DNA from: Myroides profundi
GTDB taxonomy: Bacteria; Bacteroidota; Bacteroidia; Flavobacteriales; Flavobacteriaceae
Direction: 5' to 3'
Assembly (NCBI RefSeq): GCF_000833025.1
Contig: NZ_CP010817.1
Span: forward strand, 2,728,001-2,792,000
Length of the DNA: 64,000 bases
How positions within the stretch are numbered: position 1 is the stretch's first letter; the number at the start of each line of letters is the position of its first letter. The notes under the pieces were generated by a model. It made no database searches. It worked only from the letters and a program-made list of their open reading frames with translations, and had not been told where the DNA came from. Made by a program: the position numbers and the translations under genes. Shown in pieces: positions 6,597 through 31,624 of this stretch.

Positions 6597-6627
6597 TCTT
6601 ATTTACACAAAAAACGACTAATCAACA

Positions 6628-12827: not shown

Positions 12828-13250
12828 ATTAATATGTTTTCATTTGTTTTATAACTCGTTTTACTTTACTCAAATTATATTTATGACGAATTTCAAAACA
12901 ACTACGCTCAAACAAGTATCATTTTGTTATACACAAGAGCATTTTAACAAAAAGAACATTAATTATTAGTATTCCTAACAAAAAAGAACACCTAATAAAA
13001 CATAATAAACACAATATCATTGATTTAAAAAACAATATCAACAAACTTTTTAATTAGTACTTAATCTGTTAATGACAATAAAAAAATATTTTATATTTAA
13101 CAATTCATCCTTTTTATCTCTGTAAAAACTATTTCTTATATACTTAAATTCTACATCCAACTTATAAAGACTTCATCTTTATAAAAAACAGTATCAAAAG
13201 AACTATTCGTGTCAAAAACATTTTATTCTGTTTTTTCTTCTCTCAATTTA
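12828..13250. other. Intergenic region with a shared regulatory element
   Basis: It holds the element at 12886-12954, which recurs at 29390-29458, about 58 bp upstream of the KAS III-like ATG. The rest (12960-13250) is very AT-rich with no recognised gene. Confidence 0.6.
12886..12954 (-). promoter_or_regulatory. Shared upstream element, copy 1
   Basis: 69 bp aligning without gaps to 29390-29458, with roughly 54 matches counted by eye. Shared blocks are ACGAATTTCAAAACAA, AAGTATCA, TTTGTTAT and TTAACAAAAA. Inside it TTTTGTT and AACAAAA form an inverted repeat. It precedes the KAS III-like gene; the other copy precedes the first gene of cassette 2. Confidence 0.6.
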
Positions 13251-14183
13251 TTAAAAAAATCGTGGCGTATTAATCATACTACGCTGCTTAAATAATTCAA
13301 ATCTTAAGAAGATCTCATGCGAACCTGAGTTATAACGTTGAAGCGCAGTAGTCTCAAAGTCATAAGAATAACCTACAAATAGATTTTCATTGACCTGGAA
13401 TCCTGCCAAGGCGCTCACTGAAGCATCCCAACGATAAGCTCCTCCTAAAGTAAACTTGTCATAGAATAAAAAGTTAGCTGTCAAATCTACTTGTAATGGT
13501 GCTCCACTTACTGCCTTAACTAAAGCGGCTGGCTTAATTAATAAGTTCTCACTCACATCGAATACATACCCTCCCATTAGGTAGAAGTGCATCTTCTGAC
13601 GCATCGTCGTGATATCATTATCATCATAACGGTCTGTAGTCAAGAAGTTCGGAACTGATAACCCTACATATGCTTTATCTGAATACATATAAAGTCCTGC
13701 TCCAATATTTGGGTTAAACTTATTATTAATATTCTCTTGGCTTACAGGATCTGTAGGATTGTGGATATTAAGCTTTGTATAATCAACGCTTAATAAGTTA
13801 GCTGTTCCCTTCAAACCAAAAGCTAATTTATAATCAGCATTTAAGTCAATAGCATAAGCTAAGTCTACAGAGATATTATTCTCATCCATTGCCCCAATGC
13901 GATCATTGGTAAAGTTCACTCCTAGTCCTAACCCACTTTCTCCAAGAGGGGTAGATACAGACACATTCGCTGTCTTAGGTGCTCCATCTAGCCCTACCCA
14001 CTGAGTTCTATACATCCCAAACACGTTCAGTGTTCCACGGCTCCCTGCATAAGCTGGGTTGATCATATTAGTATTATACATATACTGGGTATACTGCGGA
14101 TCTTGCTGAGCGTAAAGTGTAGAAGTAATACCTACTGTAAGTAGGTATACTCCTATTAATATAATTCTCTTTTTCAATTTCAT
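13251..14183 (-). CDS. PorP/SprF family T9SS outer-membrane protein, cassette 1
   Basis: 310 residues when started at the second Met, which copies the start of the 25742 paralogue and leaves the same 10-bp gap to the upstream gene. An upstream in-frame ATG at 14201 would add six residues. After the signal peptide (ending LYAQ) comes the family signature QQDPQYTQYMYNTNMINPAY, then a beta-barrel. PorP/SprF proteins help secrete or anchor partner proteins carrying type-B T9SS C-terminal domains; such a partner gene lies directly upstream. It is nearly identical to the second copy except near the N-terminus and around residue 210. Confidence 0.92.
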   Translation of the reverse strand: MKLKKRIILIGVYLLTVGITSTLYAQQDPQYTQYMYNTNMINPAYAGSRGTLNVFGMYRTQWVGLDGAPKTANVSVSTPLGESGLGLGVNFTNDRIGAMDENNISVDLAYAIDLNADYKLAFGLKGTANLLSVDYTKLNIHNPTDPVSQENINNKFNPNIGAGLYMYSDKAYVGLSVPNFLTTDRYDDNDITTMRQKMHFYLMGGYVFDVSENLLIKPAALVKAVSGAPLQVDLTANFLFYDKFTLGGAYRWDASVSALAGFQVNENLFVGYSYDFETTALQRYNSGSHEIFLRFELFKQRSMINTPRFF

Positions 14184-14193
14184 AACTATCACT

Positions 14194-15462
14194 TTATTCA
14201 TTTTCTAAATGCAAATACCCTGTTTTTTTAATTCTAGTTCCTTTAAAGTCATACTCTATTACATAGAAATAAGTTCCTGATGGTAATTTCTCATTTTTGC
14301 TTATAGTAATACGTCCATCAGAGTATCCTCTAAACACATTACCTGCACTGTCATAACTCTTCGTGTCAAATACCTTCACTCCCCAACGGTTATAAATCTC
14401 AACTGTATTATTAGGAAAACGATTAATATTCTCTATAATAAAATAGTCATTCTTTCCATCTGCATTAGGTGTTACAAGATTATAAACAACAATATCTTTT
14501 TCTTCATAAGATGGAGCAGGCTTTACTTTTGCCAATGTAAAAATGCCATAATTAGTAATGCTTGTTGGTGTAGCAATTTCTTTACGCTCTATATCCACTA
14601 CTCCACCTTCATCTACCCAGAGCTGCTCCTGAACATCCCAGCGAACAATATGTAACTCTTTCTCTGGATTGGTTAATAATTCAATTGGAGTTGTATTATT
14701 ATTCCATGATAAAGTTATAATAACAGAACCACTACCTTTTTTTGCTTGATTAATTACCCAAAACTCCTTCGTGTTAATCACCTCTATGTTACCTACACGC
14801 TTTTGATGAGGATAAAGTAAATTAGAATTATTTAAAAAATACTCACTTGAATACAAATCAATTAGACTCTCCGAAGCAGAAATACTTGCATAACGATAAT
14901 ATCCATTCTTACCAATAGGAAAGGTAAAAGCCTTGTTTCCTTTTTTGTCAACTACTCCATCAACATAACTTTGATTACTTACCTGAGTATGTGTGGCATT
15001 TTCCTTAAATAATATACTTGCTTCTGCATCCACATTTACCTTTACAATGCCTTGAATAAAATTAGCTTTTCCATTAATTAAAAAATCATTTTTTAGCTCA
15101 AAAGGATACTCAGAAGAACTATTATCAAAGACAATATCAAAATATTCTGAAGGTTTAGAACCTGTCAAATTCTGTAATTGATTCCCTTTAAATAGAGCTA
15201 TTCCGGTTGTGTTACCTGTCGTATAAGTAAATAAACCATCATTGTGATAACTCTTATAAAACTGAATTTCCCCATTATTAAAAACAGAGCCTAGATTGCC
15301 ATTTTTAAAATCAAAATAAGTGCTAACCACAGTATTAGGCATTATAGATAATTGACCAATATTAACAGTAATTGATTCACTAGATTGAGCATAAATAACC
15401 TTATTAGGTACTAAAACTACTATTATGAGCAGCCCTAGTATATTCATAATATTTCTTGTCAT
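14194..15462 (-). CDS. Exported protein with T9SS type-B (gliding-associated) C-terminal domain, cassette 1
   Basis: 422 residues. A signal peptide (to about 25, VIYAQ) is followed by strand-rich modules and a typical type-B sorting domain over the last 95 or so residues. That domain has VTPNADGKNDYF, EIYNRWGVKVFD, a GYSDG turn, LPSGTYFYVIEY and a final KKTGYLHL. It is predicted to cross the outer membrane by the T9SS and pair with the PorP/SprF protein encoded next. It is paralogous to the 26685 protein; both carry NPEKELHIVRWD. It lies 21 bp after the 1074-aa gene, so they are co-transcribed. Confidence 0.88.
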   Translation of the reverse strand: MTRNIMNILGLLIIVVLVPNKVIYAQSSESITVNIGQLSIMPNTVVSTYFDFKNGNLGSVFNNGEIQFYKSYHNDGLFTYTTGNTTGIALFKGNQLQNLTGSKPSEYFDIVFDNSSSEYPFELKNDFLINGKANFIQGIVKVNVDAEASILFKENATHTQVSNQSYVDGVVDKKGNKAFTFPIGKNGYYRYASISASESLIDLYSSEYFLNNSNLLYPHQKRVGNIEVINTKEFWVINQAKKGSGSVIITLSWNNNTTPIELLTNPEKELHIVRWDVQEQLWVDEGGVVDIERKEIATPTSITNYGIFTLAKVKPAPSYEEKDIVVYNLVTPNADGKNDYFIIENINRFPNNTVEIYNRWGVKVFDTKSYDSAGNVFRGYSDGRITISKNEKLPSGTYFYVIEYDFKGTRIKKTGYLHLENE

Positions 15463-15483
15463 AGTTTTATGATTTAAGGTTAA

Positions 15484-18400
15484 TTACTCTAGTCTTGTAC
15501 GTATTAATGGATTTACAATTGTTCCACAATTTTTGACTATTACTTTTAAATATTGTGTATTACCAAAACTACACCCTTGTCTTTTGGTGTCTATCTTCAA
15601 ATAAAGATTATCTACTTTACTATACTTGCTGTAAGTCTTTTTCAACTCAAATTGCTGTTTATCTTGAGTATTATTAATCTGATAAAGTAAAGAATTGGGA
15701 ATATCATTCCAACCAATTATATCAAACTGTCCTGTATCAGGGTTAACAGTAGGGCTAAGTATTGCATAGGCAAAAGAAAGATTATATGTTGTACAAGGAT
15801 CTAGTTTTTCAATCTCTAATGGAGCTGTAATACATAGATTATTATTACCTAAATGCATAGTTAATGTTGGAAGTACAGAAACATCCCATACATAGGTCTT
15901 GACCCCTAGTAGATTAACAGAAACAACATTATCCATGCGTATTTCTATTCGATCAAAAGTTGCTCCAATTCCCTCTAGAGTGATTGCATATTTATCCTTA
16001 GCCTGATTACTGATTAATTTTAATAGATCTAGTCTAATAATTTCAAAGGCATTTGAATGTACTTCTTCTCCAATGGGTTTACTTCCCATATATCTTTGAA
16101 TAGAAAAATTACTTAACAAATTCAAATCCAACACAACCCCTCCTTCTGCACTCATAATAATCTGAACTTTATCACCAGGCCTAGCCAAATCTTTAAATTT
16201 AACTACTAACTTTTGACGATTTAAAACTGAAGCTGAAGTATTAAAAACTGCTGCTGTATCATAATTAGGGGTTCCATTCAAATTTGTATTATTTTCAATA
16301 GCGTCTACTGCGTAATAGGGATTTAACACCCCTGAAAGACTAGTGGCTACACCTATACCTGCATCTTCTACTCCATAGAGTACATCCTTAGTTGTTTTAT
16401 TTAACAATAGATGTGCTGTTGCTCCATTGATACTTATATTACTTTCACACACTTCTGAAGAACTTACCAAAATGCGCTCATCAATATAAGCACCATATAC
16501 TCTTGCTGATGTAGCTACTCCTAATAAGCCTCCATTTAAAACTCTAACACCTCCATAGTTAATCATATTTCCCATATTGTCTTTAGGAATAAAAGTATAC
16601 TCAAATACATTATCCCCTGCCAATACATTAACCAAATCTAATTCTCCTATTGAAATAAGTGGCCCTATAACAGCTCCGTTTTTATCTAATGCCTGAATAG
16701 TAGTTCCTCCTATTAACTCTAACAAACTAAACTGTTGTCCAAGCTTTATGGTTATAGGAGTCCCTGCAACTATGGGCGTATTCACTACATTATCAAATGT
16801 TAAATCTACCCATGCAGTACCTATTCCCGCTAAGTTAACTAGATTAGATATTGTTGAAAATGTTGACAAGTCTTGATCAATAGCTTTTGATTCATCTAAT
16901 ACAGCTCCAGTTAAAATACTCCCCTTAGTAACATGAGTAGCCATTTTTTGTTTATATCTATATTCACATTCTTGTTTATCATAAACATAAACAGTTATTC
17001 GCTTTACAATATCACACGTTACATTACTATCTGCAATTGCATTCTTTGAAATCGCATAATAATTATAAGTTCCTATTTTATCAAAAGAAATTGTTTGTCC
17101 AGTTACATTTGCGTTTGTTAACTCATCAAAAATTTGAACACCTGAATTATTAGGTAAATTTGATTCATACAATGCCGCATTAAAAAAGACTGATGCATCT
17201 GCTACACCATTCCCATCAGAATCTAGCTTAACACTTATAGAGGATTTTCCTTGAATCGAAAACTCTTTTTGATCCTGAACATTAAAACTAGCATATCTAT
17301 TAGGACAGTATTCAGAGGTTTGGATACCTTTTATATAATAAGTACCTAAAGGTTGCCACTTATTTGCATCTTTATCAGCTTGTGTTTTAAAGAGAATCTC
17401 TTTTTGTTGTTGATTTACAATAACATATTCATTATTCTCATTATAATCTGGTATCAAATGAGTTAGATCAAATTTTCGTTGGCGAATCCCAGCGATTACA
17501 AACTCTTTAGAACACATTTTAACAGTCTTAGCAACAGCATCGACCAAGGCAACATCATAAATCTGTAAATCACCATTTATAGTTAATACTCCTACCGAAA
17601 TAGGTTTTTTAACTTTGATAGAAATCTTATCATACTTTACTAAATTGCCATTTGCATCCTTTCCTGGAGAGGCTAAAAAACTAAATGGTGTATTTCCTCC
17701 TGCATTTATAATTCCTAATACATCTGCCTTTAAAACATTCTGATTTACCTTAACTGTACTCACTACTGTATTATTACTATAGAAGAGGACCTCTACTCCT
17801 GAGGCAACATTTGCTTTTAAAAGACCGGAAGGTAATTGCATTTTAATACGTACTACTTTTTTATTTGTTTCTTCTGGAAGATAAAAGAACTGTTCAATTT
17901 GACTATCTATACCTAAATTTAATAAATTCGAACTACCTACACTAGCAAAGGATGCAAGATCATTATCAATTGCATTTTGCTCATTTTTAATAGGTCTACT
18001 TTCTCCTAGTAATGTTAAAACATCATTACTAGACTTATAATTAGTGAGTATTTCAGGACAAGAAGGCAAAACAGAATAATAAAATGAATCATAAATATTA
18101 ACAAAATGAGATCCTAGTATACCAGCTGTTTTATCTTGAATAGCAATACGATCAAAGCTTGCTCCTGCAGTTACTCTAGCATAATAATTACCATATGCAT
18201 CTTTTACAAAACGAACTTTAGCCTCATCACTCTCTTTATAATTGTGTAAACCTACTGCAAAGACAACATTATTACCTTGACTTACAGTAAAAGTTGTTTC
18301 GTGTATTCCTCCTAGTAATAACCCTTGTAAAACCTTTGTAAGAAAATTTCCTACATATCCACCTAACAAGTAGTTTAGAGACTCACTTTCAGAACTAGTT

Positions 18401-18708
18401 AATTTAATGTAATAAACATTTTTACTTCCATCAATGAGCTCGCTATGTATTAAAGTCAATATAGGTGAAACACTACCTACAAGAGTAGTTGATTTAACCT
18501 GCGTAAAAGTAGTTTCTTTTGTATCATAAGCGTTTGCTCTCTCTTCTGGAGAAATATACTCACTTCCTGAGACTGACCTATTACTTGTAGAGCTTGTTGG
18601 TCTAATCTTTACGCCTGAAGAATTAGTCATTTGTGCTAATACACTGACTTTTATAAACAAGAATAAAATCAACAATACACTTCTATATATTTTGTAATTA
18701 TCTTTCAT
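15484..18708 (-). CDS. Large secreted surface protein (1074 aa)
   Basis: Not a named family. A signal peptide (to about 26, SVLAQ) is followed by several diverged modules of about 150 residues, roughly 60-210, 240-390, 590-750 and 780-960. Each begins with a pattern like AIDxDLxTFSxxxxLVNL and ends in strand-rich segments, resembling beta-sandwich carbohydrate- or adhesion-type domains. The C-terminus (TKRQGCSFGNTQYLKVIV) lacks a recognisable T9SS sorting domain. The next gene, 21 bp on, encodes a separate protein that has one. The two probably work as a pair, or this protein is held by another route. Confidence 0.65.
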   Translation of the reverse strand: MKDNYKIYRSVLLILFLFIKVSVLAQMTNSSGVKIRPTSSTSNRSVSGSEYISPEERANAYDTKETTFTQVKSTTLVGSVSPILTLIHSELIDGSKNVYYIKLTSSESESLNYLLGGYVGNFLTKVLQGLLLGGIHETTFTVSQGNNVVFAVGLHNYKESDEAKVRFVKDAYGNYYARVTAGASFDRIAIQDKTAGILGSHFVNIYDSFYYSVLPSCPEILTNYKSSNDVLTLLGESRPIKNEQNAIDNDLASFASVGSSNLLNLGIDSQIEQFFYLPEETNKKVVRIKMQLPSGLLKANVASGVEVLFYSNNTVVSTVKVNQNVLKADVLGIINAGGNTPFSFLASPGKDANGNLVKYDKISIKVKKPISVGVLTINGDLQIYDVALVDAVAKTVKMCSKEFVIAGIRQRKFDLTHLIPDYNENNEYVIVNQQQKEILFKTQADKDANKWQPLGTYYIKGIQTSEYCPNRYASFNVQDQKEFSIQGKSSISVKLDSDGNGVADASVFFNAALYESNLPNNSGVQIFDELTNANVTGQTISFDKIGTYNYYAISKNAIADSNVTCDIVKRITVYVYDKQECEYRYKQKMATHVTKGSILTGAVLDESKAIDQDLSTFSTISNLVNLAGIGTAWVDLTFDNVVNTPIVAGTPITIKLGQQFSLLELIGGTTIQALDKNGAVIGPLISIGELDLVNVLAGDNVFEYTFIPKDNMGNMINYGGVRVLNGGLLGVATSARVYGAYIDERILVSSSEVCESNISINGATAHLLLNKTTKDVLYGVEDAGIGVATSLSGVLNPYYAVDAIENNTNLNGTPNYDTAAVFNTSASVLNRQKLVVKFKDLARPGDKVQIIMSAEGGVVLDLNLLSNFSIQRYMGSKPIGEEVHSNAFEIIRLDLLKLISNQAKDKYAITLEGIGATFDRIEIRMDNVVSVNLLGVKTYVWDVSVLPTLTMHLGNNNLCITAPLEIEKLDPCTTYNLSFAYAILSPTVNPDTGQFDIIGWNDIPNSLLYQINNTQDKQQFELKKTYSKYSKVDNLYLKIDTKRQGCSFGNTQYLKVIVKNCGTIVNPLIRTRLE

Positions 18709-18732
18709 ATTCTCTATTTAAATATTAAACAA

Positions 18733-19443
18733 CTATTTAATTACAAAAACAACATTAACAAAAGAGTAATCCGTTCCTGTACCTTTTACTGTATAAGTTA
18801 ATACTCCATTTTGATCAATACTTAAACCTTCTAAGGCAGAAGTATCATAATCTGTTATATAGTACCAAAGATCAGTAGGTAAGGACATATTAGGAATCTC
18901 ATTTGGAGCAGTAGTCTCAGGAGTACCTCCCGAACTTTTTATAAATTTCGGGCTTGATAAATTAGAATTAACAGTGCCTCCATTTGAATCCATTACAAAT
19001 GTTTTCCCTGTAAATTGAGCGATATATTCAGCGTGAAGATTTCGCTTAAATTGACCAAGTACTGAAGTATTAATAACAATAGAAGGCATATAAAAGAACT
19101 TTGCTTTTACAAGTTTGTCATCAGCTGTAATTATTCTTATCCATTTACTGTTTGATTGATTACTACTATCCTCATGCCAATAATAATACCCTGGACTTAA
19201 TCCCTGTAACACAACATTAGAAGTATTATATATCATCAAAGAATTAGCATTAGCAATATTTGTTTGTAATTGCTGTGTTACTGAGCTTAATGCTATTCTG
19301 GGTAATAAAATCCCCTTATTTGTTGCTACTACTTCTAATTGAGCAGAGCCATTAGGTTTTGATGTCCCAATACCATTCTGTGCCTTTAATGTAAATACAT
19401 TAAGAGCACAGAATACAATAATTACTAGATATTTACTTTTCAT
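18733..19443 (-). CDS. Secreted protein with a short N-terminal GIGTSKP module
   Basis: 236 residues. A signal peptide (to about 21, LKAQ) is followed by a module (about 22-105) also found in the 703-aa and 467-aa proteins. It reads NGIGTSKPNGSAQLEV, NKGILLPRIALSS, SLMIYNTS, then LSPGYYYWHE and a Trp-rich end. The rest, about 130 residues, is a strand-rich domain of unknown fold. There is no T9SS C-terminal domain. It is the gene just before the 1074-aa surface protein (24 bp apart), so it is probably translated from the same transcript. Confidence 0.6.
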   Translation of the reverse strand: MKSKYLVIIVFCALNVFTLKAQNGIGTSKPNGSAQLEVVATNKGILLPRIALSSVTQQLQTNIANANSLMIYNTSNVVLQGLSPGYYYWHEDSSNQSNSKWIRIITADDKLVKAKFFYMPSIVINTSVLGQFKRNLHAEYIAQFTGKTFVMDSNGGTVNSNLSSPKFIKSSGGTPETTAPNEIPNMSLPTDLWYYITDYDTSALEGLSIDQNGVLTYTVKGTGTDYSFVNVVFVIK

Positions 19444-19520
19444 ACTACTAAATTTTAAATAATTTCCTTTCGCACTTTATATAGATACTTATTTAGTGCT
19501 TGAATCAATAGTAGATTACT

Positions 19521-21632
19521 TTATTTTACAGAGTAGTCTGTAACTACTTTTATAGCGAAATCAGCTGCAATTACCTCTGGTAAAAGTGCATACCAATTCC
19601 CTACTCCTATTTTAAAAGTCAAAGTGTTTCCTGATACCAAAACATCTGTTGTTGCTGTATTGATAATTTGATTAGTTGCAGCATTTAAAAGCTTAATTTC
19701 CACTACATTCCCTACTGTTTTTCCTAAAGGAACATTTAATGTAATAGCTGATACATCTGCAGTACCTTTAGCTACTGTAGCTGAATATATGCCCTTATAT
19801 ATTTTACCTCCATCAATCCAGGTATCTCCAGTATTTACAATAACAGTATTACTGTAAGTATCACCTAGTTGATTTTTTATTTCTTGCTTTTGTTCAATAG
19901 TAGCATTAGTAATTGCATATACTACTGCTGAGGAAATGTCTACAATTTCTCTAACTTTAGTAGTCTCATTAATAGTATAAAAAGAAAATGCGGGAATAGC
20001 CAATTGACCACTCGGTGTTCCTGCGACAATCTCAGTACGTGTAAAATAGACATTCCCACCTGCACTTAAAATATTAGAAATTGCATTTTGAACTTCTGTA
20101 TTATTCTCAATAGACCATTTAACATCAGCTGTCATATCGATATAGTTCTTAACTTGAGTGTTCTCTGTAATATACTCATAGACTATCTTTTCTGCTGACT
20201 TACTATCTACTAAAACAGGAGCATATGCTACATTATTTATACTTTTGCCAATTACTGTTTGAGTTTCGCTAGCCTTTACTATTGTCTTAAACTTAGTATT
20301 ATCTACTGTTTCCCATTGTTTAGTCGTACTATTCCAAGTTTGGAAAACCACATCGTTTGTTATAGTGTCATAAATAATCTTTGTACTTCCCTCTTGCAAA
20401 TTTTTTGACACCTCTTCAATATATTTTTCAAGTGTAGTGTAATTATTCCCATTTACTGTTACTGCACTATTTACAATTGTATTAAAATTATGAACAACTC
20501 CATTAGGTATATCAATGTAATAAACCCCCATAGGTAAATTTGCACTTGTCCATGCATCAATAGCTTGTTGAGTCGGTACTTGATTATTATTAGCACCTAG
20601 ATAAACTTCAGATATATAATATTGTTTGGCCTTATCGGTAGATTGAACTATACTTGTTTTTGATTCTGATGCACTAATTAAACTTCCTAAGTTAATAGTC
20701 TTATAAATTGTTCCATCCCAATACTGAAACTCCCAATCAGGATCTGCTTGTGTACCAATATTCTTGTAAATAACATTTCCATCAATTAAAGATGCAATAT
20801 GTTGAATATACTGTTCGACAGTAGTAAATGTGTTTGTCCCTTCTGTTATATTAATAGGAGATTTAATAATTTCTTTAATATTATTTACTACCCCTCCCAT
20901 TATATCTACTTGATAGACCCCTAATGGTAAAGTTGTCCAACCATCTATTACTGCTTGAGTAGGTTCTGTATTATTATTTGCAATCAGATAAGTCTCTGAT
21001 ATATAGTATTGTTTTTTATTATCTGTTGTCTTTACTAATAAAGTCTTAGGTTCTACACCATTTATAAGACTAATTATATCATTAGTAATATTTTTTTTGA
21101 CATAATTACTTCCGTCAAAGTAAATATACTCAACTATTGGATTGATTCCAGGTGTAAAAACCATTCCTCCTCCATAAGTATCTCCAGTTTTAGTAAGATC
21201 TGTCAAATTATTTGCAGGAAAAGCAGTCTTTAAAAGTGCTATTACTTTATCTAAACTTGTCTGAAAATTTGCAATATTACCAATTGCTATGTCTAATTGG
21301 TTCTGATTTACGATACGTTCCCAATGAGCTGCTACAGGGTTAGCCCCCACTACTTCTGAAACCCAATAATAAAAGCCAGGAACTATAGCGGTATTACCTG
21401 TCCCAACTAAAGCAGTATTATAAATTAATAAACTTTCTGCTTCAGTTCCTTTTATTGGGCTAAAACTAGTTAATGAGGTAAGTTCTATACGTGGAATCAA
21501 AACCCCTTTATCTATTGCTTTTATCTCCAATTGAGATGATGATATAGGCGCAGAAGTTCCAACACCTACTTGACTATAAGCACCTGTTAATCCTCCAACA
21601 AAAAGTGCTACTGTAAGTAATCTTTTTTTCAT
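19521..21632 (-). CDS. Secreted repeat protein with GVGTSAP module (703 aa)
   Basis: A signal peptide (to about 20, AYSQ) leads into the shared module (about 21-108: VGVGTSAPISSSQLEI, DKGVLIPRIELTS, SLLIYNTA, PGFYYWVSE). Then come two tandem repeats of about 130 residues (about 195-322 and 323-452). Each has KQYYISExYL, an ANNN-PTQ segment, GVYxxDIxxGVV, and a short WETV- or YKTINL-like end leading to SASESKT/KASETQT. The rest is strand-rich. The gene heads cassette 1, 77 bp before the 236-aa gene. It is likely a fibrous surface adhesin; function is inferred from architecture only. Confidence 0.6.
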   Translation of the reverse strand: MKKRLLTVALFVGGLTGAYSQVGVGTSAPISSSQLEIKAIDKGVLIPRIELTSLTSFSPIKGTEAESLLIYNTALVGTGNTAIVPGFYYWVSEVVGANPVAAHWERIVNQNQLDIAIGNIANFQTSLDKVIALLKTAFPANNLTDLTKTGDTYGGGMVFTPGINPIVEYIYFDGSNYVKKNITNDIISLINGVEPKTLLVKTTDNKKQYYISETYLIANNNTEPTQAVIDGWTTLPLGVYQVDIMGGVVNNIKEIIKSPINITEGTNTFTTVEQYIQHIASLIDGNVIYKNIGTQADPDWEFQYWDGTIYKTINLGSLISASESKTSIVQSTDKAKQYYISEVYLGANNNQVPTQQAIDAWTSANLPMGVYYIDIPNGVVHNFNTIVNSAVTVNGNNYTTLEKYIEEVSKNLQEGSTKIIYDTITNDVVFQTWNSTTKQWETVDNTKFKTIVKASETQTVIGKSINNVAYAPVLVDSKSAEKIVYEYITENTQVKNYIDMTADVKWSIENNTEVQNAISNILSAGGNVYFTRTEIVAGTPSGQLAIPAFSFYTINETTKVREIVDISSAVVYAITNATIEQKQEIKNQLGDTYSNTVIVNTGDTWIDGGKIYKGIYSATVAKGTADVSAITLNVPLGKTVGNVVEIKLLNAATNQIINTATTDVLVSGNTLTFKIGVGNWYALLPEVIAADFAIKVVTDYSVK

Positions 21633-21807
21633 AACTATAGTTTTAAAGTTTATACAAATTGAAAACTATTTTCAAAAACTATCATCAAAAAAAAAGCTTA
21701 ATATTTTAATTATTCACAAAAAAACACACTTTTGTAAATAACAAAAACAGTAGGTTCACTTTTATAGATTTCACAAATCACTACCAAATTGACGAATCCT
21801 AAAAACT

Positions 21808-22473
21808 CTAAATTTCTTTGAGATACTTTGAAAAAGTAACTCCTTTCACTCTTTTAAAAACAGTTGAAAATTGACTATGAGATGAAAAACCTGCTAGTGC
21901 AGAAATATATGCGATCTTACATAATTTTAATTCTGTCTCATGGTTTAAAAGAGTAATAACATATTCTACTCGAAGTGTATTTAAATATGAATTAAAGTTT
22001 TCATTATTTCGCTCTCTTAATATAGCTGATAAATAACTTCGATTGGTACCAAATTCTGATGCAAGGGATGTTAATGAAATACAAGGATCTTTATATCTAT
22101 GTTCTTTTTCAAATAAATTAATCAGTTCTATTAAACGCAATCGTGTCTCGGGGGATATTTGATCGGTTTCTGATACTTGGTAAGTATCTACTAACTCTGT
22201 ATTGATAATTAAGTTTAAAACAAATGCAATCTGATTAAACCTTAAACCAATTATTGTCTTTTTTTCAACCCTACATATAAAGATGGAAAAGAATATGAAT
22301 GTCCAAAATATTAATGCTCCAAATAAGTAATACTTCCAGTACCTTATCTCCACAACGCTTAAACTTATTAAATTAAAGTTAGTGTTTGCCTTTAATAGAA
22401 CAATAGTCTTATTTACCTCTAATGAGATAACAACTAGAATATTATTAAAACGATGTAATAAAAAATCGACCAT
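21808..22473 (-). CDS. Membrane-anchored AraC-family regulator (221 aa)
   Basis: A single membrane helix at about 47-66 (YYLFGALIFWTFIFFSIFI) is followed by a linker and a C-terminal AraC-type double helix-turn-helix (about 125-221; ISLTSLASEFGTNRSYLSAIL and GFSSHSQFSTVFKRVKGV). Related flavobacterial regulators carry a long N-terminal TPR sensor. That part is absent here, and an in-frame stop lies directly before the ATG, so the protein is a short form. It is immediately upstream of cassette 1 on the same strand, which suggests that it controls it. Confidence 0.75.
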   Translation of the reverse strand: MVDFLLHRFNNILVVISLEVNKTIVLLKANTNFNLISLSVVEIRYWKYYLFGALIFWTFIFFSIFICRVEKKTIIGLRFNQIAFVLNLIINTELVDTYQVSETDQISPETRLRLIELINLFEKEHRYKDPCISLTSLASEFGTNRSYLSAILRERNNENFNSYLNTLRVEYVITLLNHETELKLCKIAYISALAGFSSHSQFSTVFKRVKGVTFSKYLKEI

Positions 22474-23031
22474 ATTTTAAAACTGATAAAATAAACATTC
22501 TTATTATAAAACTTACTTTGTAACAAATGATATACTTTAAAATATATCTAAAAATCACAACAAACAAAACAAACCTATAAACAACACAAACACCTATAAA
22601 CAAACAAAAAACAGGCGATTATTTCACTTCTAAATTAATACAATAAATAAAATAAACAATAAATATTACAATACAAAAACACTTAAAAAACAATTGTATA
22701 ATCACTCAATACACATATTTAAACGATAATAATTGTTAATTTTTATTAATTAAAAAAACATAAACAATAAATATTGATTAATTTTAAATTTTAAACTATT
22801 TTTCACCCATTATATTAAACTATTATAATATTTAAACAAAAAACAATAAAATAAACGCATTAGCAAAGTAGCTAATAATACTACTTGATGGTAACAACTA
22901 AAAAAGCCAGTTAGTTTTCTAACTGGCTCTACTACAAAATTCCTAAAATAATCATTGTAACAAATATTACTTATCACAACTTAAAAAACCAACGAAATCA
23001 TATTTAACAATATTTAATTTCTCTCTTTATC
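22474..23031. other. Very AT-rich intergenic region
   Basis: No gene was recognised. At its right end lies a minus-strand terminator (22905-22928) of the barrel gene. The remainder is A- and T-run rich sequence with no clear structure. Confidence 0.6.
22905..22928 (-). terminator. Terminator of the outer-membrane barrel gene
   Basis: A 10-bp perfect stem AGCCAGTTAG/CTAACTGGCT with loop TTTT. The T tract lies on the minus strand, about 100 bp downstream of the gene ending at 23032. Confidence 0.75.
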
Positions 23032-23613
23032 TTACTTCCCTAAAAATATTTGAAAACCAATCGATACCCCTAATCCGTTATGAGCAGAAGCATTAGATTG
23101 ATTAGATTTACTATAATTATAACCAACAATCGCTTCCAAAGCAACATTATATGATACAAAATGAGAATATCCTGCATTGATATTAAATGCAAAAGAAGTA
23201 TCACTTTTCTTACCAACTTCAGCTCCTGAAATACCTAAAGCTCCTTGTCCAAAAAAACGACCTGTATCACTAGCTCCCTCTGGAAAATAATAACGTACAA
23301 AAGGCATTACTTTATAATTCCAAATATTATCTCCTGCTTTTACTGTTTGTAAACCTGCTCCTATTTCCATTCCTAAGGCTACTCCTTTTGAGATAAAATA
23401 TCCTGTCCTAGGTACTATATTAATATTAAAACTTTCTTCTTCGAAACTATAGCCAGTAGAACCAATAGCTCCTCCTACAATCCAATTTCCTTGCTTTATC
23501 GGTGTACTTCCAACTTTTTTAGATAATTCTGGAGTGGAAATATGTTCTTTTAATTGAGCATTCATCCCTACTCCAATTAAAAATATACAAAAAACAATAG
23601 CTCCTTTTTTCAT
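23032..23613 (-). CDS. Outer-membrane beta-barrel protein (193 aa)
   Basis: A signal peptide (to about 19, GMNAQ) is followed by a small beta-barrel of alternating hydrophobic strands (GNWIVGGAIGSTGYSF, then several strands). It ends in the aromatic-rich VSIGFQIFLGK typical of 8-stranded porin-like OMPs. It follows the PorE-like gene but is separated from it by a terminator, so it is an independent unit. Such barrels are common as accessory surface proteins. No specific function. Confidence 0.72.
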   Translation of the reverse strand: MKKGAIVFCIFLIGVGMNAQLKEHISTPELSKKVGSTPIKQGNWIVGGAIGSTGYSFEEESFNINIVPRTGYFISKGVALGMEIGAGLQTVKAGDNIWNYKVMPFVRYYFPEGASDTGRFFGQGALGISGAEVGKKSDTSFAFNINAGYSHFVSYNVALEAIVGYNYSKSNQSNASAHNGLGVSIGFQIFLGK

Positions 23614-23670
23614 ATTTACTTCTATTTAATTATTAAAAAACATTTTTTAAACATCCAATACTTCTTAGTA

Positions 23671-23698
23671 AAAGGATCCTAAAATATTAGGATCCTTT
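23671..23698 (-). terminator. Terminator of cassette 2 main operon
   Basis: A 12-bp perfect stem AAAGGATCCTAA/TTAGGATCCTTT with loop AATA, between the PorE-like gene (ends 23758) and the barrel gene (starts 23613). On the minus strand it ends in CCTTTT. Confidence 0.75.
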
Positions 23699-23757
23699 AA
23701 AAACAAACAAACACTTCTATACTAAATAATAGTAATCATCATAATAAGTCTCCCCTT

Positions 23758-25716
23758 CTATAGACTTAAAATAATAAACTCACTACGTCTATTTAATTGA
23801 TGTTGTTCTTTACTACATTTAACTCCATTGCTACATTTATTGTGCAATTCTGTTTCGCCATAGCCTCTTCCCTTCACTCTATCAGAAGCAATTCCCTGCT
23901 TAATAATCCATTGTATAGTTGATTTTGCTCTTCTATCTGATAATTGATAATTGTAATTATCATTTCCTCTACTATCTGTATGGGAACGAACATCTATTTT
24001 CATAGTTGGATACTTTTTCAAAATCTCTACAACTTTACTTAGCTCTTTAGCAGCGTCTGGTCTAATAGAGGATTTGTCAAAATCAAAATAGATAGTATTG
24101 AGTTTTAACTTCTTAAACAAATCATCATTTACATCAACAGATTCTTTTACTTTAGTCAATCCAATTTTTAAACTCTTATAGCTTTCTTTACCAGTTATAT
24201 CAAATGACTCTTGTACTTTATTATATCCCTGTCTCTCTGCAACAATAGTATATTGTTTTTTGCAGTCCAAATCATTAAATAAATAACTTCCTTTAGAATC
24301 TGTAACAATAACTTTAATAATATTATTAGAATTGTCAAGCAAAGTTACTTTTGCATCCTTTATAAGTTCTTTAGTTTGAATATCATAGACAATACCATCA
24401 ACTAAGGTATTACACTGACTAACTTTAAAACAATAAATATTGTCTCCTTCATTCAGACCTGGTCTATTAGAGCTTATAAAACCACTATCTGATACATCAT
24501 TTAGATAAAAACTAAAATCATCAAATGGACTATTTATAGGTGTCCCCATATTAACTACTTGACTTAAACTTCCATCTTCATTTATTTTTGAAACAAAAAT
24601 GTCTAATCCCCCAAGCCCTGGGTGTCCATCTGAGGCAAAAAACAGATAATTATCTCTAGAGATAAATGGAAAAGTTTCTCGACCAGCAGTATTAATAACA
24701 CTTCCTAAGTTTTCAACTTGCCCATAATTTCCATCAGAATATATTTGTACCCTAAAAATATCGGATTGCCCCAAAGTCCCTTCTCTATCAGAAGAGAAAT
24801 AAAGCCATTTACCATCAGGGGTTAAACTAGGATGAGCTGTATTAAAGTTATCCGAATTAAAAGGTAGCTCCAAGGCTTTACTCCATTTACCTTTTTTATT
24901 TTTAGAACTTTTATAGATTTTAAGTAATGACGATTTATTCTTATTATTTTTCCTCTTCCCTTTTAAAGTAGAATTATTACGTGTAAAGTACATCGTATTT
25001 CCGTCTTTAGTAAAAATAGCAGTAGCATCATTTACTAAAGAAGTAATTTCTTTTGAAAAAAGAGAAGGTTCTGATAAAGAATCATCTTTATTAATACTTG
25101 CCTTATACAATGCAGTAAAACTTTCATTGGTCCACTCATGAATAGACTTTGTTATTTGTGAGTTTCTAGCTGATGTAAAAACAAGTTGATTATCAAAGAT
25201 TGTAGCACCATAATCTGAATAAACACTATTAATATTTATAGGTTTTATATCATAGGTAGATTCTTTTTTCTCAATTTCTTGTAAGTAGTCCTTGTTTGAC
25301 TTAAATAACCTAACTCTAGAATCATTACTTTCCAAAGAAGAGAACTTCTCCATCATCTCTCTAGATTTATCATAGTTCTCAATTGATTTTAAAGTCTGTG
25401 CATAGCGATAGTAATATTCTGATGGAATTGGCTCTTTTCCTTTATCGTCATACTCTCCATCGAATAGTGTCTCATACCACTTATTAGCCTCAGGCAACTT
25501 TCCATTAAAATAGTAAGCATCACCTAATTTTCTTAATACATCTGCATTGGCTTTTCCTTTATTAACAATTCGCTCATATATTCTTATTGCATCTATATAT
25601 GCTTGAGCCTGATACTCTTTATCAGCTTTCTTCTCTGCTACTCTCTGAGCTTGAGTACTCACTCCTGCCAAAAGTAATAGACCTAACAAGCTTATTTTTA
25701 ATAGTTGTCTTTTCAT
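23758..25716 (-). CDS. PorE-like OmpA family protein (TPR, PD40 propeller, carboxypeptidase-regulatory, OmpA)
   Basis: 652 residues in the order known for PorE-type T9SS proteins: signal peptide (to about 23), TPR (about 30-125), PD40/WD40-like beta-propeller (about 170-430; GKWLYFSSDREG, GLGGLDIFVS), carboxypeptidase regulatory-like fold (about 437-510) and OmpA peptidoglycan-binding domain (about 537-652; IYFDFDKSSIRPDA, HTDSRGNDNYN, LNRRSEF). PorE anchors the T9SS to peptidoglycan, and PorE-like proteins are often encoded with PorP/SprF partners. It is 25 bp after the PorP/SprF gene and in the same operon. Confidence 0.9.
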   Translation of the reverse strand: MKRQLLKISLLGLLLLAGVSTQAQRVAEKKADKEYQAQAYIDAIRIYERIVNKGKANADVLRKLGDAYYFNGKLPEANKWYETLFDGEYDDKGKEPIPSEYYYRYAQTLKSIENYDKSREMMEKFSSLESNDSRVRLFKSNKDYLQEIEKKESTYDIKPININSVYSDYGATIFDNQLVFTSARNSQITKSIHEWTNESFTALYKASINKDDSLSEPSLFSKEITSLVNDATAIFTKDGNTMYFTRNNSTLKGKRKNNKNKSSLLKIYKSSKNKKGKWSKALELPFNSDNFNTAHPSLTPDGKWLYFSSDREGTLGQSDIFRVQIYSDGNYGQVENLGSVINTAGRETFPFISRDNYLFFASDGHPGLGGLDIFVSKINEDGSLSQVVNMGTPINSPFDDFSFYLNDVSDSGFISSNRPGLNEGDNIYCFKVSQCNTLVDGIVYDIQTKELIKDAKVTLLDNSNNIIKVIVTDSKGSYLFNDLDCKKQYTIVAERQGYNKVQESFDITGKESYKSLKIGLTKVKESVDVNDDLFKKLKLNTIYFDFDKSSIRPDAAKELSKVVEILKKYPTMKIDVRSHTDSRGNDNYNYQLSDRRAKSTIQWIIKQGIASDRVKGRGYGETELHNKCSNGVKCSKEQHQLNRRSEFIILSL

Positions 25717-25741
25717 GTTTTTCTTAATTATTAATTAATAA

Positions 25742-26674
25742 CTAAAAGAATCGTGGTGCATTAATTGTACTACGACGGTTAAATAATTCAAATCTTAAGA
25801 AGATCTCGTGTGATCCTGAATTATAGTGACGAAGCGTTGTAGTATCAAAATCATAAGAATAACCTACAAATAGATTTTCATTGATCTGGAATCCTGCCAA
25901 GGCGCTCACTGAAGCATCCCAACGATAAGCTCCTCCTAATGTAAACTTGTCATAGAATAAAAAGTTAGCTGTTAAATCGACCTGTAATGGTGCTCCACTT
26001 ACTGCCTTAACTAAAGCTGCTGGTTTAAATAAAATATCTTGACTTAAATCAAATACATACCCTCCCATTAAATAGAAGTGCATCTTCTGACGCATCGTTG
26101 TGATGTCGTTATCATCATAGCGATCCGTAGTTAAGAAGTTCGGAACTGATAACCCTACATAAGCCTTATCCGAATACATATAAAGTCCTGCTCCAATATT
26201 AGGATTAAACTTATTCTTAATATTCTCTTGACTCACAGGATCAGTAGGATTATGTATGTTAAGCTTTGTATAATCAACACTTAATAAATTAGCTGTTCCT
26301 TTCAAACCGAATGCTAATTTGTAATTCTCATTTAAGTCTATTGCATAAGCTAAGTCTACAGAGATATTATTCTCATCCATTGCTCCAATGCGATCATTGG
26401 TAAAGTTCACTCCTAGTCCTAATCCACTTTCTCCAAGAGGGGTAGATACAGACACATTCGCTGTCTTAGGTGCTCCATCTAACCCTACCCACTGTGTTCT
26501 ATACATCCCAAACACATTCAGTGTTCCACGACTCCCTGCATAAGCAGGGTTGATCATATTAGTATTATACATATACTGGGTATACTGTGGATCTTGTTGA
26601 GCGTAAAGGGAAGGGATTAAGCCTACCCCTAGTAGGCTCATCCCAAGTAATATAATTCTCTTTTTCAATTCCAT
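25742..26674 (-). CDS. PorP/SprF family T9SS outer-membrane protein, cassette 2
   Basis: 310 residues, with a signal peptide ending SLYAQ and the family start QQDPQYTQYMYNTNMINPAY. Apart from the first 25 residues, a few positions near 210 and the last dozen, it is almost identical to the cassette 1 protein, and long DNA stretches match exactly. The two genes are therefore recently duplicated or kept alike by gene conversion. It should assist secretion of the type-B CTD protein encoded 10 bp upstream. Confidence 0.92.
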   Translation of the reverse strand: MELKKRIILLGMSLLGVGLIPSLYAQQDPQYTQYMYNTNMINPAYAGSRGTLNVFGMYRTQWVGLDGAPKTANVSVSTPLGESGLGLGVNFTNDRIGAMDENNISVDLAYAIDLNENYKLAFGLKGTANLLSVDYTKLNIHNPTDPVSQENIKNKFNPNIGAGLYMYSDKAYVGLSVPNFLTTDRYDDNDITTMRQKMHFYLMGGYVFDLSQDILFKPAALVKAVSGAPLQVDLTANFLFYDKFTLGGAYRWDASVSALAGFQINENLFVGYSYDFDTTTLRHYNSGSHEIFLRFELFNRRSTINAPRFF

Positions 26675-26684
26675 AATTCTAACT

Positions 26685-27956
26685 TTAGTCCATTTCTAAA
26701 TGTAAATACCCTGATTTTTTAATCATACGAGAGCCTTGAGTATCTTTATACTCATAAGTAACTATATAAAAATAGGTTCCTGAAGGTAATTTATCTGACT
26801 TCTCCACTGTTACACGTCCATCTGAATAACCTCTAAATACATTATCTGAACTATTATAATTTGACGTCTCATATACCTTAACTCCCCATCGATTGTAAAT
26901 CTCTACTGTATTATTAGGATAACGATTAATATTATCAATGATAAAATAATCATTCTTTCCATCTCCATCAGGAGATACTAGATTATAGATAACTAAATCT
27001 CCTTCTAAGAGTAAGTCTGTTTTTACCCTTGCTAGAGTAAAATACCCATAACCTGTTAAACCTGAAATTGTTGTTATCTCTTTATTTGATAGATCAACTA
27101 CTCCTCCTTCATCTACCCAAAGCTGTTGCTTAGCATCCCAACGTACAATGTGTAATTCTTTCTCTGGGTTTGTCAACAATTCTGATGGAGTGGTTCGATC
27201 ATCCCAACTTAGTGTTAATAATACATTCCCTGAACTAGAGTCTGAGCGTTTTATTTCCCAATACTCTTTTGTATTCAAATCCTCTATAACTCCCGATTTA
27301 CTAGACTTATCTAAGAAAAAATCTTCCTCTGAATAGACATATCTACTCATATATAAATCTTTTTCACTAGAAGATGCAGATAATTTTGCTGGACGATAAT
27401 AGCCACTATCCCCAATTGGGTAGATAAAGGAATCCTTACCTTGTTTTTCTACATACCCTTCTACATGGCTTTTATCTGAGGCGCCTATTGATTTAGAATT
27501 AGACAAAAAAGTAAACATGCCTTCTTGCTCAGAAACCTTTATGATTCCTGAAATAAAATTGGATTCTCCTTTAACACTAATTTCATTACCAAGTAAAAAA
27601 CTTTGCTTAGAATTATCAGTTCTAAATTCTACATTATGAAATTCACTAACACTTTGTCCTAAAATTTCTTGTCTTATTAATTCTTTCTTGGGATGAAAAT
27701 ATACTTTTGCCTTTTTTGATAAAGTACCTGGATAAAAAAGATTGTCATTTTTAAAATGATCATAATAATAAACCTCTCCTTTATTTTCGAAATTTCCAGA
27801 AATACTATTCTCAAAATTATAACCTATACTTAAGATTCCTCCTTCCAATACAATCAACTCTCCTTGATTGATAAATTTTTCTTCTACAGATTCCTGCCCA
27901 AACACAGCAAAGTTCCACAGAGAAAAACAGATTATATATAAATGTATTTTTCTCAT
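26685..27956 (-). CDS. Exported protein with T9SS type-B C-terminal domain, cassette 2
   Basis: 423 residues. A signal peptide (to about 21, AVFGQ), strand-rich central modules and a type-B sorting domain over the last 100 or so residues: VSPDGDGKNDYF, EIYNRWGVKVYE, GYSDG, LPSGTYFYIVTY, and KKSGYLHLEMD at the end. It is a paralogue of the 14194 protein, differing mainly in the N-terminal half and sharing the NPEKELHIVRWD block. It lies 8 bp after the 467-aa gene and 10 bp before PorP/SprF, a tight operon. Confidence 0.88.
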   Translation of the reverse strand: MRKIHLYIICFSLWNFAVFGQESVEEKFINQGELIVLEGGILSIGYNFENSISGNFENKGEVYYYDHFKNDNLFYPGTLSKKAKVYFHPKKELIRQEILGQSVSEFHNVEFRTDNSKQSFLLGNEISVKGESNFISGIIKVSEQEGMFTFLSNSKSIGASDKSHVEGYVEKQGKDSFIYPIGDSGYYRPAKLSASSSEKDLYMSRYVYSEEDFFLDKSSKSGVIEDLNTKEYWEIKRSDSSSGNVLLTLSWDDRTTPSELLTNPEKELHIVRWDAKQQLWVDEGGVVDLSNKEITTISGLTGYGYFTLARVKTDLLLEGDLVIYNLVSPDGDGKNDYFIIDNINRYPNNTVEIYNRWGVKVYETSNYNSSDNVFRGYSDGRVTVEKSDKLPSGTYFYIVTYEYKDTQGSRMIKKSGYLHLEMD

Positions 27957-27964
27957 GACTTTCT

Positions 27965-29368
27965 CTATTTTTCAAAAACTTGAACAACAACTCCTGTAGC
28001 TTTATAAGTAACAGCCTTATTTGCACCTGCTTTAATGGAACCGTCATTAGTACCTACATTTTTATGAAATGTACTACTTGCTGGTCGAACTGTTATTGTC
28101 ACTGTATTAGATTCTGATAAATTAGGTACATCTGCTAAAGAAACCATTCCAACATATGAATCATAAGCCTGGTTTAAACCAAAATTATACCCTCCATATC
28201 TATAAAATTTATCTACAAAACGCTTAACTTCCTTATTGTTAACTAATACTCTAAATTCTACTTTTGCATAAACTTCATTGTTTCCAATATACCCTCCTAT
28301 TGTTGTAATACCTGAATCGACTTCAAACATAACTTGTAAGTATTTTGTATTTGCTGGATTTGAATTTGTTTTAAATGTAGATCTAAATAGTTCTCCTTGA
28401 ACTGCATTTGTATTCATAAATATACCTGCTGTAGAAGAGGCTGTCATTGTATCATAATTGTAGCTTTTTTCTGTATAAGTACCTGAAGTTATAAAACTAG
28501 CAAGTACAGGAGCATCTAAACTTGGAACTTTAAAACTTAATCCTGTATTAGGTTTAGGGGCTCCTGACTGATCAATTTCTTTTTCATTATAATATGTAAA
28601 AGTACCATCATTATTATCCACCAGTTTTGTAACTGTTTCATTGGTTTTGATTAGATCGGTAAGATTTACTTCCTTTTTATCTCCATTAGCATCTTTATAT
28701 TCCAAATTGGTTCCATCGTAAAAAACATTTCCTCCACTATTACCCAACAATTTTGTAATTTCATTTTTAACTGTTTCATCTTTGATAATAGTTTCAAATT
28801 GAGTGATTACAGAATTAGGTATATTTATAATTGTCTCTGTCCCATCCTCTGACTTATAGGTATACGTACCATCAGCACCAGCCACTAGCGTAGTTACTGT
28901 TTCATTGGCCTTAACTACTGTTGAAAAAAATAATTCCTTTCTTGCTCCTGAACGATCTAAGTATTCAAATTTATTTCCATCATAAAAAACATTTCCTCCT
29001 GCTGTCTTTAAAATATTTTGAACAGTCTCATTCTTAACAATTTCTTCAAAGTTATTTATCACAATATCCTTTACATCTTCACCAACTGTTAATTTTAACC
29101 ATTTTGTTTTATTCCAATAATAAAATCCAGGTTCTATGTCCCCTTGTTTTTTATTAGCATAAACTAATAAACTTTCGACATTCCCATTTGAAATAGTTGA
29201 AGTGTCATTAGTAGTCTTTAAAGGAATACTTGGTATTAATAATCCTTTATCATTTGAAGTTATTGTAAGTTCTGCAGACTTACTAGGTGTTTTAGTTCCA
29301 ATACCCACTTGAGCTTGTAGTGACAACACAAATAAAAATGCAGCCACACATAGTAATTGTTTTTTCAT
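27965..29368 (-). CDS. Secreted repeat protein with GIGTKTP module (467 aa)
   Basis: A signal peptide (to about 19, SLQAQ) is followed by the shared module (VGIGTKTPSKSAELTI, DKGLLIPSIPLKT, SLLVYANK, EPGFYYWNKTKW). Then come two tandem repeats of about 90 residues containing NETVxNxLxxxGGNVFYDG, YxDxxGxKKE, ANETVTTLV or TNETVTKLV and DGTYTY/DGTFTY. The C-terminal 180 residues form an unassigned strand-rich domain. It heads cassette 2. Probably an adhesin or passenger handled by the CTD/PorP pair downstream; inferred. Confidence 0.62.
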   Translation of the reverse strand: MKKQLLCVAAFLFVLSLQAQVGIGTKTPSKSAELTITSNDKGLLIPSIPLKTTNDTSTISNGNVESLLVYANKKQGDIEPGFYYWNKTKWLKLTVGEDVKDIVINNFEEIVKNETVQNILKTAGGNVFYDGNKFEYLDRSGARKELFFSTVVKANETVTTLVAGADGTYTYKSEDGTETIINIPNSVITQFETIIKDETVKNEITKLLGNSGGNVFYDGTNLEYKDANGDKKEVNLTDLIKTNETVTKLVDNNDGTFTYYNEKEIDQSGAPKPNTGLSFKVPSLDAPVLASFITSGTYTEKSYNYDTMTASSTAGIFMNTNAVQGELFRSTFKTNSNPANTKYLQVMFEVDSGITTIGGYIGNNEVYAKVEFRVLVNNKEVKRFVDKFYRYGGYNFGLNQAYDSYVGMVSLADVPNLSESNTVTITVRPASSTFHKNVGTNDGSIKAGANKAVTYKATGVVVQVFEK

Positions 29369-29389
29369 GTTACATAAATTTTATTTAAC

Positions 29390-29458
29390 ACGAATTTCAA
29401 AACAATAGCACTATAATAAGTATCACTTTGTTATTCATAAGAACACATTAACAAAAAT
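29390..29458 (-). promoter_or_regulatory. Shared upstream element, copy 2
   Basis: Ungapped match to 12886-12954. It starts 21 bp before the ATG of the 467-aa gene, so it overlaps the likely promoter of cassette 2. The core AAGTATCACTTTGTTAT is followed by GAACA and TTAACAAAAA. Confidence 0.6.
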
Positions 29459-29530
29459 GAAATTGTTTCATAACAATCAAATAATAAAACTAACAATCAA
29501 ATAATACTCGTAAATCACTAATAAGTATCA

Positions 29531-29570
29531 AAAAAAAAATAGGTCTAAACGTATTGTCTAAACCTATTTT
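29531..29570 (-). terminator. Orphan minus-strand terminator-like hairpin
   Basis: AAAATAGGT (29536-29544) pairs with ACCTATTTT (29562-29570), and the inner stem continues with two mismatches. On the minus strand a run of ten T follows. It is about 160 bp upstream of cassette 2 and after the AraC gene's own terminator, so it may insulate the operon or end an unseen small RNA. Confidence 0.5.
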
Positions 29571-30190: not shown

Positions 30191-30199
30191 CCTAAATAA

Positions 30200-31598: not shown

Positions 31599-31624
31599 AT
31601 AATAACCTATCTTTAAAAGAAAAA

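Follow-up and report, generated by a model that had tools for sequence, protein, structure and literature searches.

porP as a probable recombination hub in a dispersed family of type IX secretion operons of Myroides profundi

Positions 2,728,001-2,792,000 of the single-contig, 4.06-Mb genome of Myroides profundi (NZ_CP010817.1; this 64,000-nucleotide stretch is called the window and supplies the coordinates below unless the chromosome is named) contain two gene cassettes of the type IX secretion system (T9SS), both on the minus strand. Cassettes A and B, the first and second of the window, each combine passenger genes with a gene for a linker or anchor protein ending in a type-B C-terminal domain (CTD) and a porP/sprF gene. 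Our analysis indicates that they probably belong to a T9SS operon family in which porP is a recombination hub and passenger blocks are exchanged between lineages. The original prediction had described two cassettes with near-identical PorP partners and different passengers, and had suggested a switchable surface structure. Both cassettes are real, with every open reading frame (ORF) where it had been placed, and their PorP proteins are 92% identical. The picture of a pair proved incomplete: the chromosome has ten close PorP genes.

porP as a probable recombination hub

These ten genes encode proteins 67-100% identical to PorP-A, besides one distant match (25%), and the PorPs of cassettes A-F are 88-93% identical to PorP-B. 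The chromosome further encodes 11 type-B linkers, PorE-like proteins, many passengers sharing one N-terminal domain and, at 586-593 kb, the T9SS translocon protein SprA. Cassettes C, D, E, F and G lie at 2.33, 2.08, 2.50, 3.11 and 2.86 Mb, respectively. The remaining members are partial: H (0.28 Mb) is without porP, I and J (both 3.10 Mb) are without passengers, no linker was seen in K (2.36 Mb), L (2.56 Mb) consists of a linker only and M (1.93 Mb) of a PorE only. The ORFs of the cassettes are mostly intact, and the cassettes possess upstream regions of their own. The minus strand carries all ten porP genes and is probably the leading strand, because the GC skew changes sign between 1.92 and 2.07 Mb in the blocks fetched. 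Of 61 Myroides genomes sampled, 58 had a PorP match (E<=1e-60), with up to 11 per genome. Multi-copy PorP is common in Myroides, and the six near-identical copies are the feature that stands out, within-genome identity having been measured in a minority of the 61 genomes.

In the mature coding part of porP all 15 pairs among A-F are 87.9-95.2% identical with a synonymous divergence (dS) of 0.22-0.59, and the full-length genes are 86.3-94.3% identical (dS 0.25-0.55). The signal-peptide part (26 codons) ranges from 49 to 99% and is high only within cassettes of the same type (B/C 95%, D/E 99%). The dS of the linker exceeds 1 in 13 of the 15 pairs, the exceptions being B/C (0.34) and D/F (0.24), and the dS of PorE among B, D, E and F, a comparison that omits the split PorE of cassette C, is 1.77-3.14 in five of six pairs and 0.08 in D/E. 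The silent sites of porP are able to diverge, because mature porP reaches a dS of 1.65 (A) and 0.89 (F) against the M. marinus orthologues and is saturated, and not computable, for B against M. odoratus; the M. odoratimimus genes are closer (0.12 for F, 0.28 for D). Codon constraint was rejected as the cause of the near identity on these grounds. The protein sequence of the CTD is conserved, with 72-99% identity across the last 100 aa among A-F and a nonsynonymous divergence (dN) of 0.07-0.18, at a dS of 0.63-1.66 in the computed pairs, so it is held by selection. The same mosaic pattern was found in strain N17-2, in which loci L040 and L043 share porP at 90.7% and PorE at 96.1% with the linker at 76.5%, and loci L037 and L040 share the linker at 90.2% with PorE at 73.1%.

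The linker and PorE phylogenies conflict with each other. In the porP tree A-F and the M. odoratimimus copies form one clade (support 1.000), and a separate one (0.963) unites the four N17-2 copies. In the linker tree A groups with M. marinus, B and C with M. odoratus, E with M. marinus, and D and F with M. odoratimimus and M. marinus. In the PorE tree F falls with M. odoratimimus, M. marinus and N17-2, and D and E fall with M. odoratimimus and N17-2. Topology tests on cassettes B-G gave a linker alignment that rejects PorE-type trees by 614 log units, a PorE alignment that rejects linker-type trees by 950 log units and a porP alignment that accepts all candidate trees. Breakpoints can be placed on individual cassettes: C is B-like until positions +71 to +95 of porP, apart from an F-like patch just before the gene, and F-like thereafter, while D resembles F upstream, is a patchwork inside porP and resembles E from about +600 onwards, PorE included. 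Four contig ends of M. odoratimimus carry a 2,217-bp block with no difference between them, which starts within the linker and stops shortly after porP; since the contigs break there and one consensus may have been copied, only its near identity is safe. Because porP is near-identical while linker and PorE diverge and their trees reject each other, porP is a gene-conversion or recombination hub that joins exchangeable linker and PorE modules, with breakpoints in or beside it.

The similarity of the PorPs could instead reflect a recent duplication of whole cassettes, after which passengers, linker and PorE diverged fast and PorP was constrained. Larger parts have indeed been copied recently, as seen in linkers B/C (89.5%) and D/F (94.8%) and in PorE D/E (98.1%). 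Such a history is nonetheless quite unlikely, because synonymous divergence is unequal between neighboring genes of the same cassette pair, the linker and PorE topologies conflict, and linker A pairs with M. marinus and linkers B and C with M. odoratus, yet their porPs pair together. As the only process, recent duplication is contradicted by the topology tests and by the synonymous and orthologue divergence.

Exchange of passenger blocks and the search for a switch

The clearest exchange is at locus F. The comparison was made with M. odoratimimus CCUG 39352, the nearest named genome in the analysis, in which the flanks that match the window show 89-98% identity. The upstream flank of locus F with its two AraC genes has a counterpart on the contig (length 95,001) that holds locus L033, where 92.1% identity extends over 5.6 kb and stops 6 bp from the first passenger ATG of M. 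profundi. The block that follows is 11,095 bp here, encoding proteins of 1385 and 2297 aa, and 14,240 bp in M. odoratimimus, encoding proteins of 1712, 766, 778 and 1409 aa; the two share nine short matches of 49-514 bp. From about 50 bp ahead of the linker ATG the two genomes again agree, at 97.5% identity, past porP to the contig end. The matching PorE (97.4%) belongs to a different contig (L035), and the far side of that contig is syntenic with locus F of M. profundi; we infer that the two contigs join via a collapsed repeat. Thus, the passenger block at locus F is swapped between two close genomes, with regulators, linker and PorP retained. The blocks have relatives elsewhere: the 1409-aa protein is 80% identical to an N17-2 protein and 32% over 183 aa to the 1385-aa protein of M. 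profundi, and the 2297-aa fibre matches a fibre of M. phaeus (57% identity over 1008 aa), the locus of which has a similar arrangement. Beside locus F, the M. odoratimimus cassettes look collapsed, with a linker piece, an IS110-family transposase and a PorE piece at L035 5048-8058.

Cassettes A and B vary between genomes as a unit. The segment 7946-34701 that holds them is largely missing from M. odoratimimus CCUG 39352, which has the flanks, positions 1-7945 (89%) and 34702-40816 (94-98%). Between these flanks the DNA query, which left out 13201-16999, gave only diverged matches except at 8105-9656 (96%), a piece that shares its M. odoratimimus counterpart with its tandem neighbor. Six PorP matches were found in M. 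odoratimimus, none above 87% to PorP-B; four contig ends are read as two loci of D and F types, one match is G by its neighbors and one is K-like by identity only. At the right edge of the segment a tyrosine-type integrase gene (32927-34168, minus strand; PF00589, PF13102 and PF17293) adjoins a tRNA-Pro (34476-34551). An M. odoratimimus contig (L104, C42:10000-15699) ends in the same tRNA-Pro sequence and encodes, besides a related integrase, the R subunit of a type I restriction system, and this shared arrangement of integrase beside tRNA-Pro suggests an integration hotspot. A search for an attachment repeat at the left end of the segment found no exact copy of at least 16 nt of the tRNA-Pro in the window.

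Homogenisation of porP might also be a neutral by-product of having many long near-identical genes, with no effect on export or surface variation. Long homologous genes recombine in any genome, and the tracts here also cover porE in C/F and D/E and the linker in D/F. We regard this account as somewhat unlikely. The CTD is conserved in protein yet silently diverged, which argues that PorP and CTD are a pair under common constraint, and at locus F the whole passenger block is replaced with tight edges.

Several observations weigh against porP as a recombination hub with exchanged passenger blocks. PorE is also homogenised in D/E, and in C/F across porP and porE, so PorP is not the sole converted gene. 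The M. marinus porP copies L038 and L041, an A-type/F-type pair, are not homogenised (78.2%, dS 1.39) and do not pair or group by species in the tree, and the N17-2 linkers fall partly among themselves. The 2,217-bp block may be partly an assembly consensus, and such mosaics could also have arisen by horizontal transfer between strains. The D passengers are kept in M. odoratimimus (96%) and the A passengers in M. marinus (83% for the 703-aa, 80% for the 236-aa and 73% for the 1074-aa protein), where the linker is only 58% identical, so block replacement is seen at one locus. The original prediction had looked to free divergence of PorP copies and to a fixed form of the loci, with constant expression of both cassettes, as signs against itself. 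The PorP copies do not diverge freely in M. profundi or N17-2, and the M. marinus pair behaves otherwise; the form is not fixed at locus F in M. odoratimimus and is kept for the cassette A passengers in M. marinus. Its central idea, one transport partner with alternative surface proteins, is borne out at several loci and by the differing passengers of locus F.

The proposed switch fared less well. A system in which cassettes are within-strain alternatives, chosen by AraC regulators or by recombination, would fit the AraC-type genes that adjoin B, C, D, E and F, and in both window cassettes the first passenger gene is preceded by an A/T run of 9-10 nt (21687 in A, 29530 in B), although AT-rich DNA is expected to hold such short runs. 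The region upstream of cassette B (29363-29489) also resembles, at 72% identity over 127 nt, positions 12859-12985 upstream of a 324-aa ketoacyl-synthase-III-like gene (11853-12827), and regulation in common is possible from this similarity. In a scan of 12000-32000 the only inverted pairs were imperfect, 26-42 nt long and 71-81% identical, and a second repeat scan found no inverted repeats in the cassettes; inverted repeats on either side of a promoter or gene segment, as in phase variation by DNA inversion, were absent, so an inversion switch has no support. Simple repeats are limited to the 9-10-nt A/T runs and short imperfect arrays at 22292-22676. Because the AraC genes of locus F stay unchanged while the cargo changes, these genes are suggested to be locus regulators rather than selectors between cassettes. 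A switch within the strain is very unlikely, and exchange between lineages remains our preferred explanation.

Cassette genes and the C-termini of the passengers

In the window the cassette genes are on the minus strand. Cassette A has porP/sprF at 13251-14201 as a 316-aa ORF, of which a 310-aa form begins at 14183, and the 422-aa linker A at 14194-15462. PorP-A belongs to the PorP/SprF family by curated profiles (PF11751, 310 bits against a cut-off of 22.3; TIGR03519, 302 against 90.6), and PorP-B (25742-26674) by its identity to PorP-A. Linker B (423 aa) lies at 26685-27956, and the linker-to-PorP gaps are both exactly 10 bp, as predicted, provided PorP-A begins at 14183. Both linkers carry the type-B CTD at the C-terminus: CHU_C (cut-off 27) is passed by A (96 bits) and B (94 bits), and TIGR04131 (cut-off 35) scores above threshold for A (42.3) and slightly below it for B (34.5). 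AlphaFold2 gave a fairly good model of linker B (mean predicted local distance difference test, pLDDT, 83; predicted template modelling score, pTM, 0.66). Cassette A is without a PorE gene. In cassette B the PorE-like protein (23758-25716) has TPR, PD40, carboxypeptidase-regulatory and OmpA domains in the expected order, with PD40, CarboxypepD_reg and OmpA above and the TPR models below their cut-offs. It misses the NCBIfam equivalog cut-offs of the T9SS_PorE and CHU_0125 models (354 versus 600 and 468 versus 620 bits), and we therefore call it PorE-like only. Downstream of cassette B a 193-aa beta-barrel-like protein (23032-23613, minus strand; a weak PF13505 match below cut-off) has an 84% identical copy after cassette C.

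The three membrane AraC regulators of the original prediction are AraC-type, with one, five and four N-terminal hydrophobic segments in the 221-aa (21808-22473, minus), 408-aa (30200-31426, minus) and 281-aa (31625-32470, plus) proteins, respectively. Elsewhere in the window, ~487-aa genes are tandemly duplicated (6400-9805 and 11479-11605, with blocks of 94% and 87% and a 127-nt block present three times), with two copies here versus one matching stretch in M. odoratimimus, and a perfect 25-bp inverted repeat without spacer at 10260-10309 is perhaps a terminator.

Cassette A encodes passengers of 703 aa (19521-21632), with a VGIGT-type domain at the N-terminus, and 236 aa (18733-19443), with an N-terminal VGIGT-type and a C-terminal ~121-aa domain, as well as a 1074-aa passenger-block protein (15484-18708) that ends in IVNPLIRTRLE and gave no match in Pfam and NCBIfam scans. 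The AlphaFold2 model of the 236-aa protein is modest (mean pLDDT 76, pTM 0.53), with residues 181-236 at 83-96. The 467-aa passenger of cassette B (27965-29368) has the VGIGT-type N-terminal domain and a differing C-terminus. Sequence searches for solved relatives found none for PorP-A and none for the passenger profile.

No sorting domain was recognized by Pfam or NCBIfam on the scanned passengers. Iterated profile searches of the loci gave 26 finds of the ~121-aa domain (one gene counted twice in overlapping loci), always 0-3 residues from the C-terminus of proteins from 205 to about 3,340 aa. A second element, (T/S/V)NP followed by 3-13 residues, ends 24 of 801 ORFs (3.0%); 500 shuffles of the C-termini gave 2.98 on average and never more than 8, and the pattern occurs in 48 of 4005 random internal 20-mers (1.2%). 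Twenty-two of the 24 are passenger-block proteins, orthologues included, the remainder being one CTD protein and one PorP. Some carry DUF11, DUF7507 or RCC1 repeats, and BLAST among the M. profundi proteins of 1074 (A), 862 (D), 690 (E), 1385 (F) and 1259 aa (H) gave no match reaching both C-termini. The two elements go together: 21 of 22 linker cassettes with the ~121-aa domain also have the NP tail, that of G being degenerate, and none of the four searched passenger cassettes without the domain has it (B and C of M. profundi; L042 and L047). These are not 22 independent events, because many of the cassettes are orthologues.

The ~121-aa domain and the NP tail may serve in docking or sorting. 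Going further, we tentatively suggest a multi-protein surface structure of undescribed kind, a scheme we hold to be possible rather than probable, in which CTD-less fibres would be exported or held by the small type-B anchor, the ~121-aa domain and the NP tail of a partner would act as docking or sorting elements, and one interchangeable PorP kept by gene conversion would let fibre blocks swap among loci and species.

Giant repeat proteins (3339, 2517 and 2746 aa) carry the ~121-aa domain at chromosome positions 2450164-2460183 and 2961124-2980930, with no linker or porP in the stretches fetched. The cassette E passenger (L015 16040-19704) contains collagen-like tandem arrays, one with a 290-bp unit (5.5 copies, 99%) and further ones with units of 155 and 104 bp; the units are not multiples of three, and the passenger is several separate ORFs in the assembly. 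The cassette C PorE gene (chromosome 2334558-2336527) and the cassette D fibre (chromosome 2087086-2093394) are each two ORFs in the assembly, by decay, variation or sequencing error. A homopolymer was discarded as the cause of the split in C, where the 141 bp scanned contain no run of 6 A/T or 5 G/C.

Relation to known systems

Published work shows that PorP-like proteins bind and export type-B CTD proteins, and proposes that sets with PorE are static anchors (PMC9143113, PMC12618676). The cassettes probably form part of a dispersed T9SS family of surface-structure operons, the majority of which encode passengers lacking a recognized CTD, a ~420-aa anchor and a PorE-like protein. By analogy with that work in Porphyromonas gingivalis and Flavobacterium johnsoniae, the type-B CTD of the anchor would be collected by the adjacent PorP barrel, and the PorE-like protein would tie PorP to peptidoglycan, giving a static rather than a gliding structure. 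The mature part of porP is homogenised across six loci that lie as far as about 1 Mb from one another, and a uniform carrier would make an incoming passenger-linker module exportable at any of them. Surface diversity would then arise between lineages, by block exchange and by gain or loss of islands, and not through switching inside a single cell line.

Type-B CTD proteins and PorP/SprF are reported to pair for the most part specifically, with some crosstalk, and a non-cognate shuttle of F. johnsoniae functioned at 68% CTD identity and failed at 43% or 26% (PMC12618676). PorPs A-F should be interchangeable as carriers by this comparison, because their CTDs are 72-99% identical. The closest arrangements are Fjoh_3952-3951-3950 of F. 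johnsoniae and PG1035-PorP-PorE of P. gingivalis, in which type-B CTD, PorP/SprF and PorE-like genes are adjacent (PMC12618676, PMC9143113). In those sets the CTD is on the adhesin and the pairs are mostly specific (PMC12618676), whereas here the CTD is on a small separate linker, the passengers are without a recognized CTD and six PorP copies are homogenised. The data suggest an alternative to specific couples: many cargo modules with one carrier type kept uniform by recombination, the whole passenger block being replaced at a fixed site. An extract of PMC9870892 contains nothing on partners without a CTD, one of PMC6391281 has no T9SS content, and searches of open-licence PMC papers yielded nothing on PorP gene conversion or this mode of evolution.

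The gliding adhesin SprB and its shuttle SprF share the PorP/SprF family and the type-B CTD logic; gliding SprF has a Cys-X-Cys tail (PMC12635249, from extracts), whereas the cassettes here mostly have an adjacent PorE-like gene and none of the ten M. profundi PorP copies has such a tail or any Cys beyond position 22. The sole solved structure found with the linker profile is the Aureispira grappling hook protein GhpA (PDB 9flp), matched over the C-terminal ~85 positions (E 3e-4). GhpA is one chain of 5898 residues, whereas here the signal and the structural proteins are separate genes. The gonococcal pilE/pilS system varies an antigen by gene conversion, in which silent copies overwrite the variable part in one expression site. 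In both systems recombination among dispersed homologous loci diversifies surface proteins, but in M. profundi it is the constant carrier that undergoes overwriting, and the loci have upstream regions of their own. The parts were known, and what is added is their combination, modular recombination around a secretion carrier, which makes carrier interchangeability, export of CTD-less passengers and surface diversification by block exchange directly testable.

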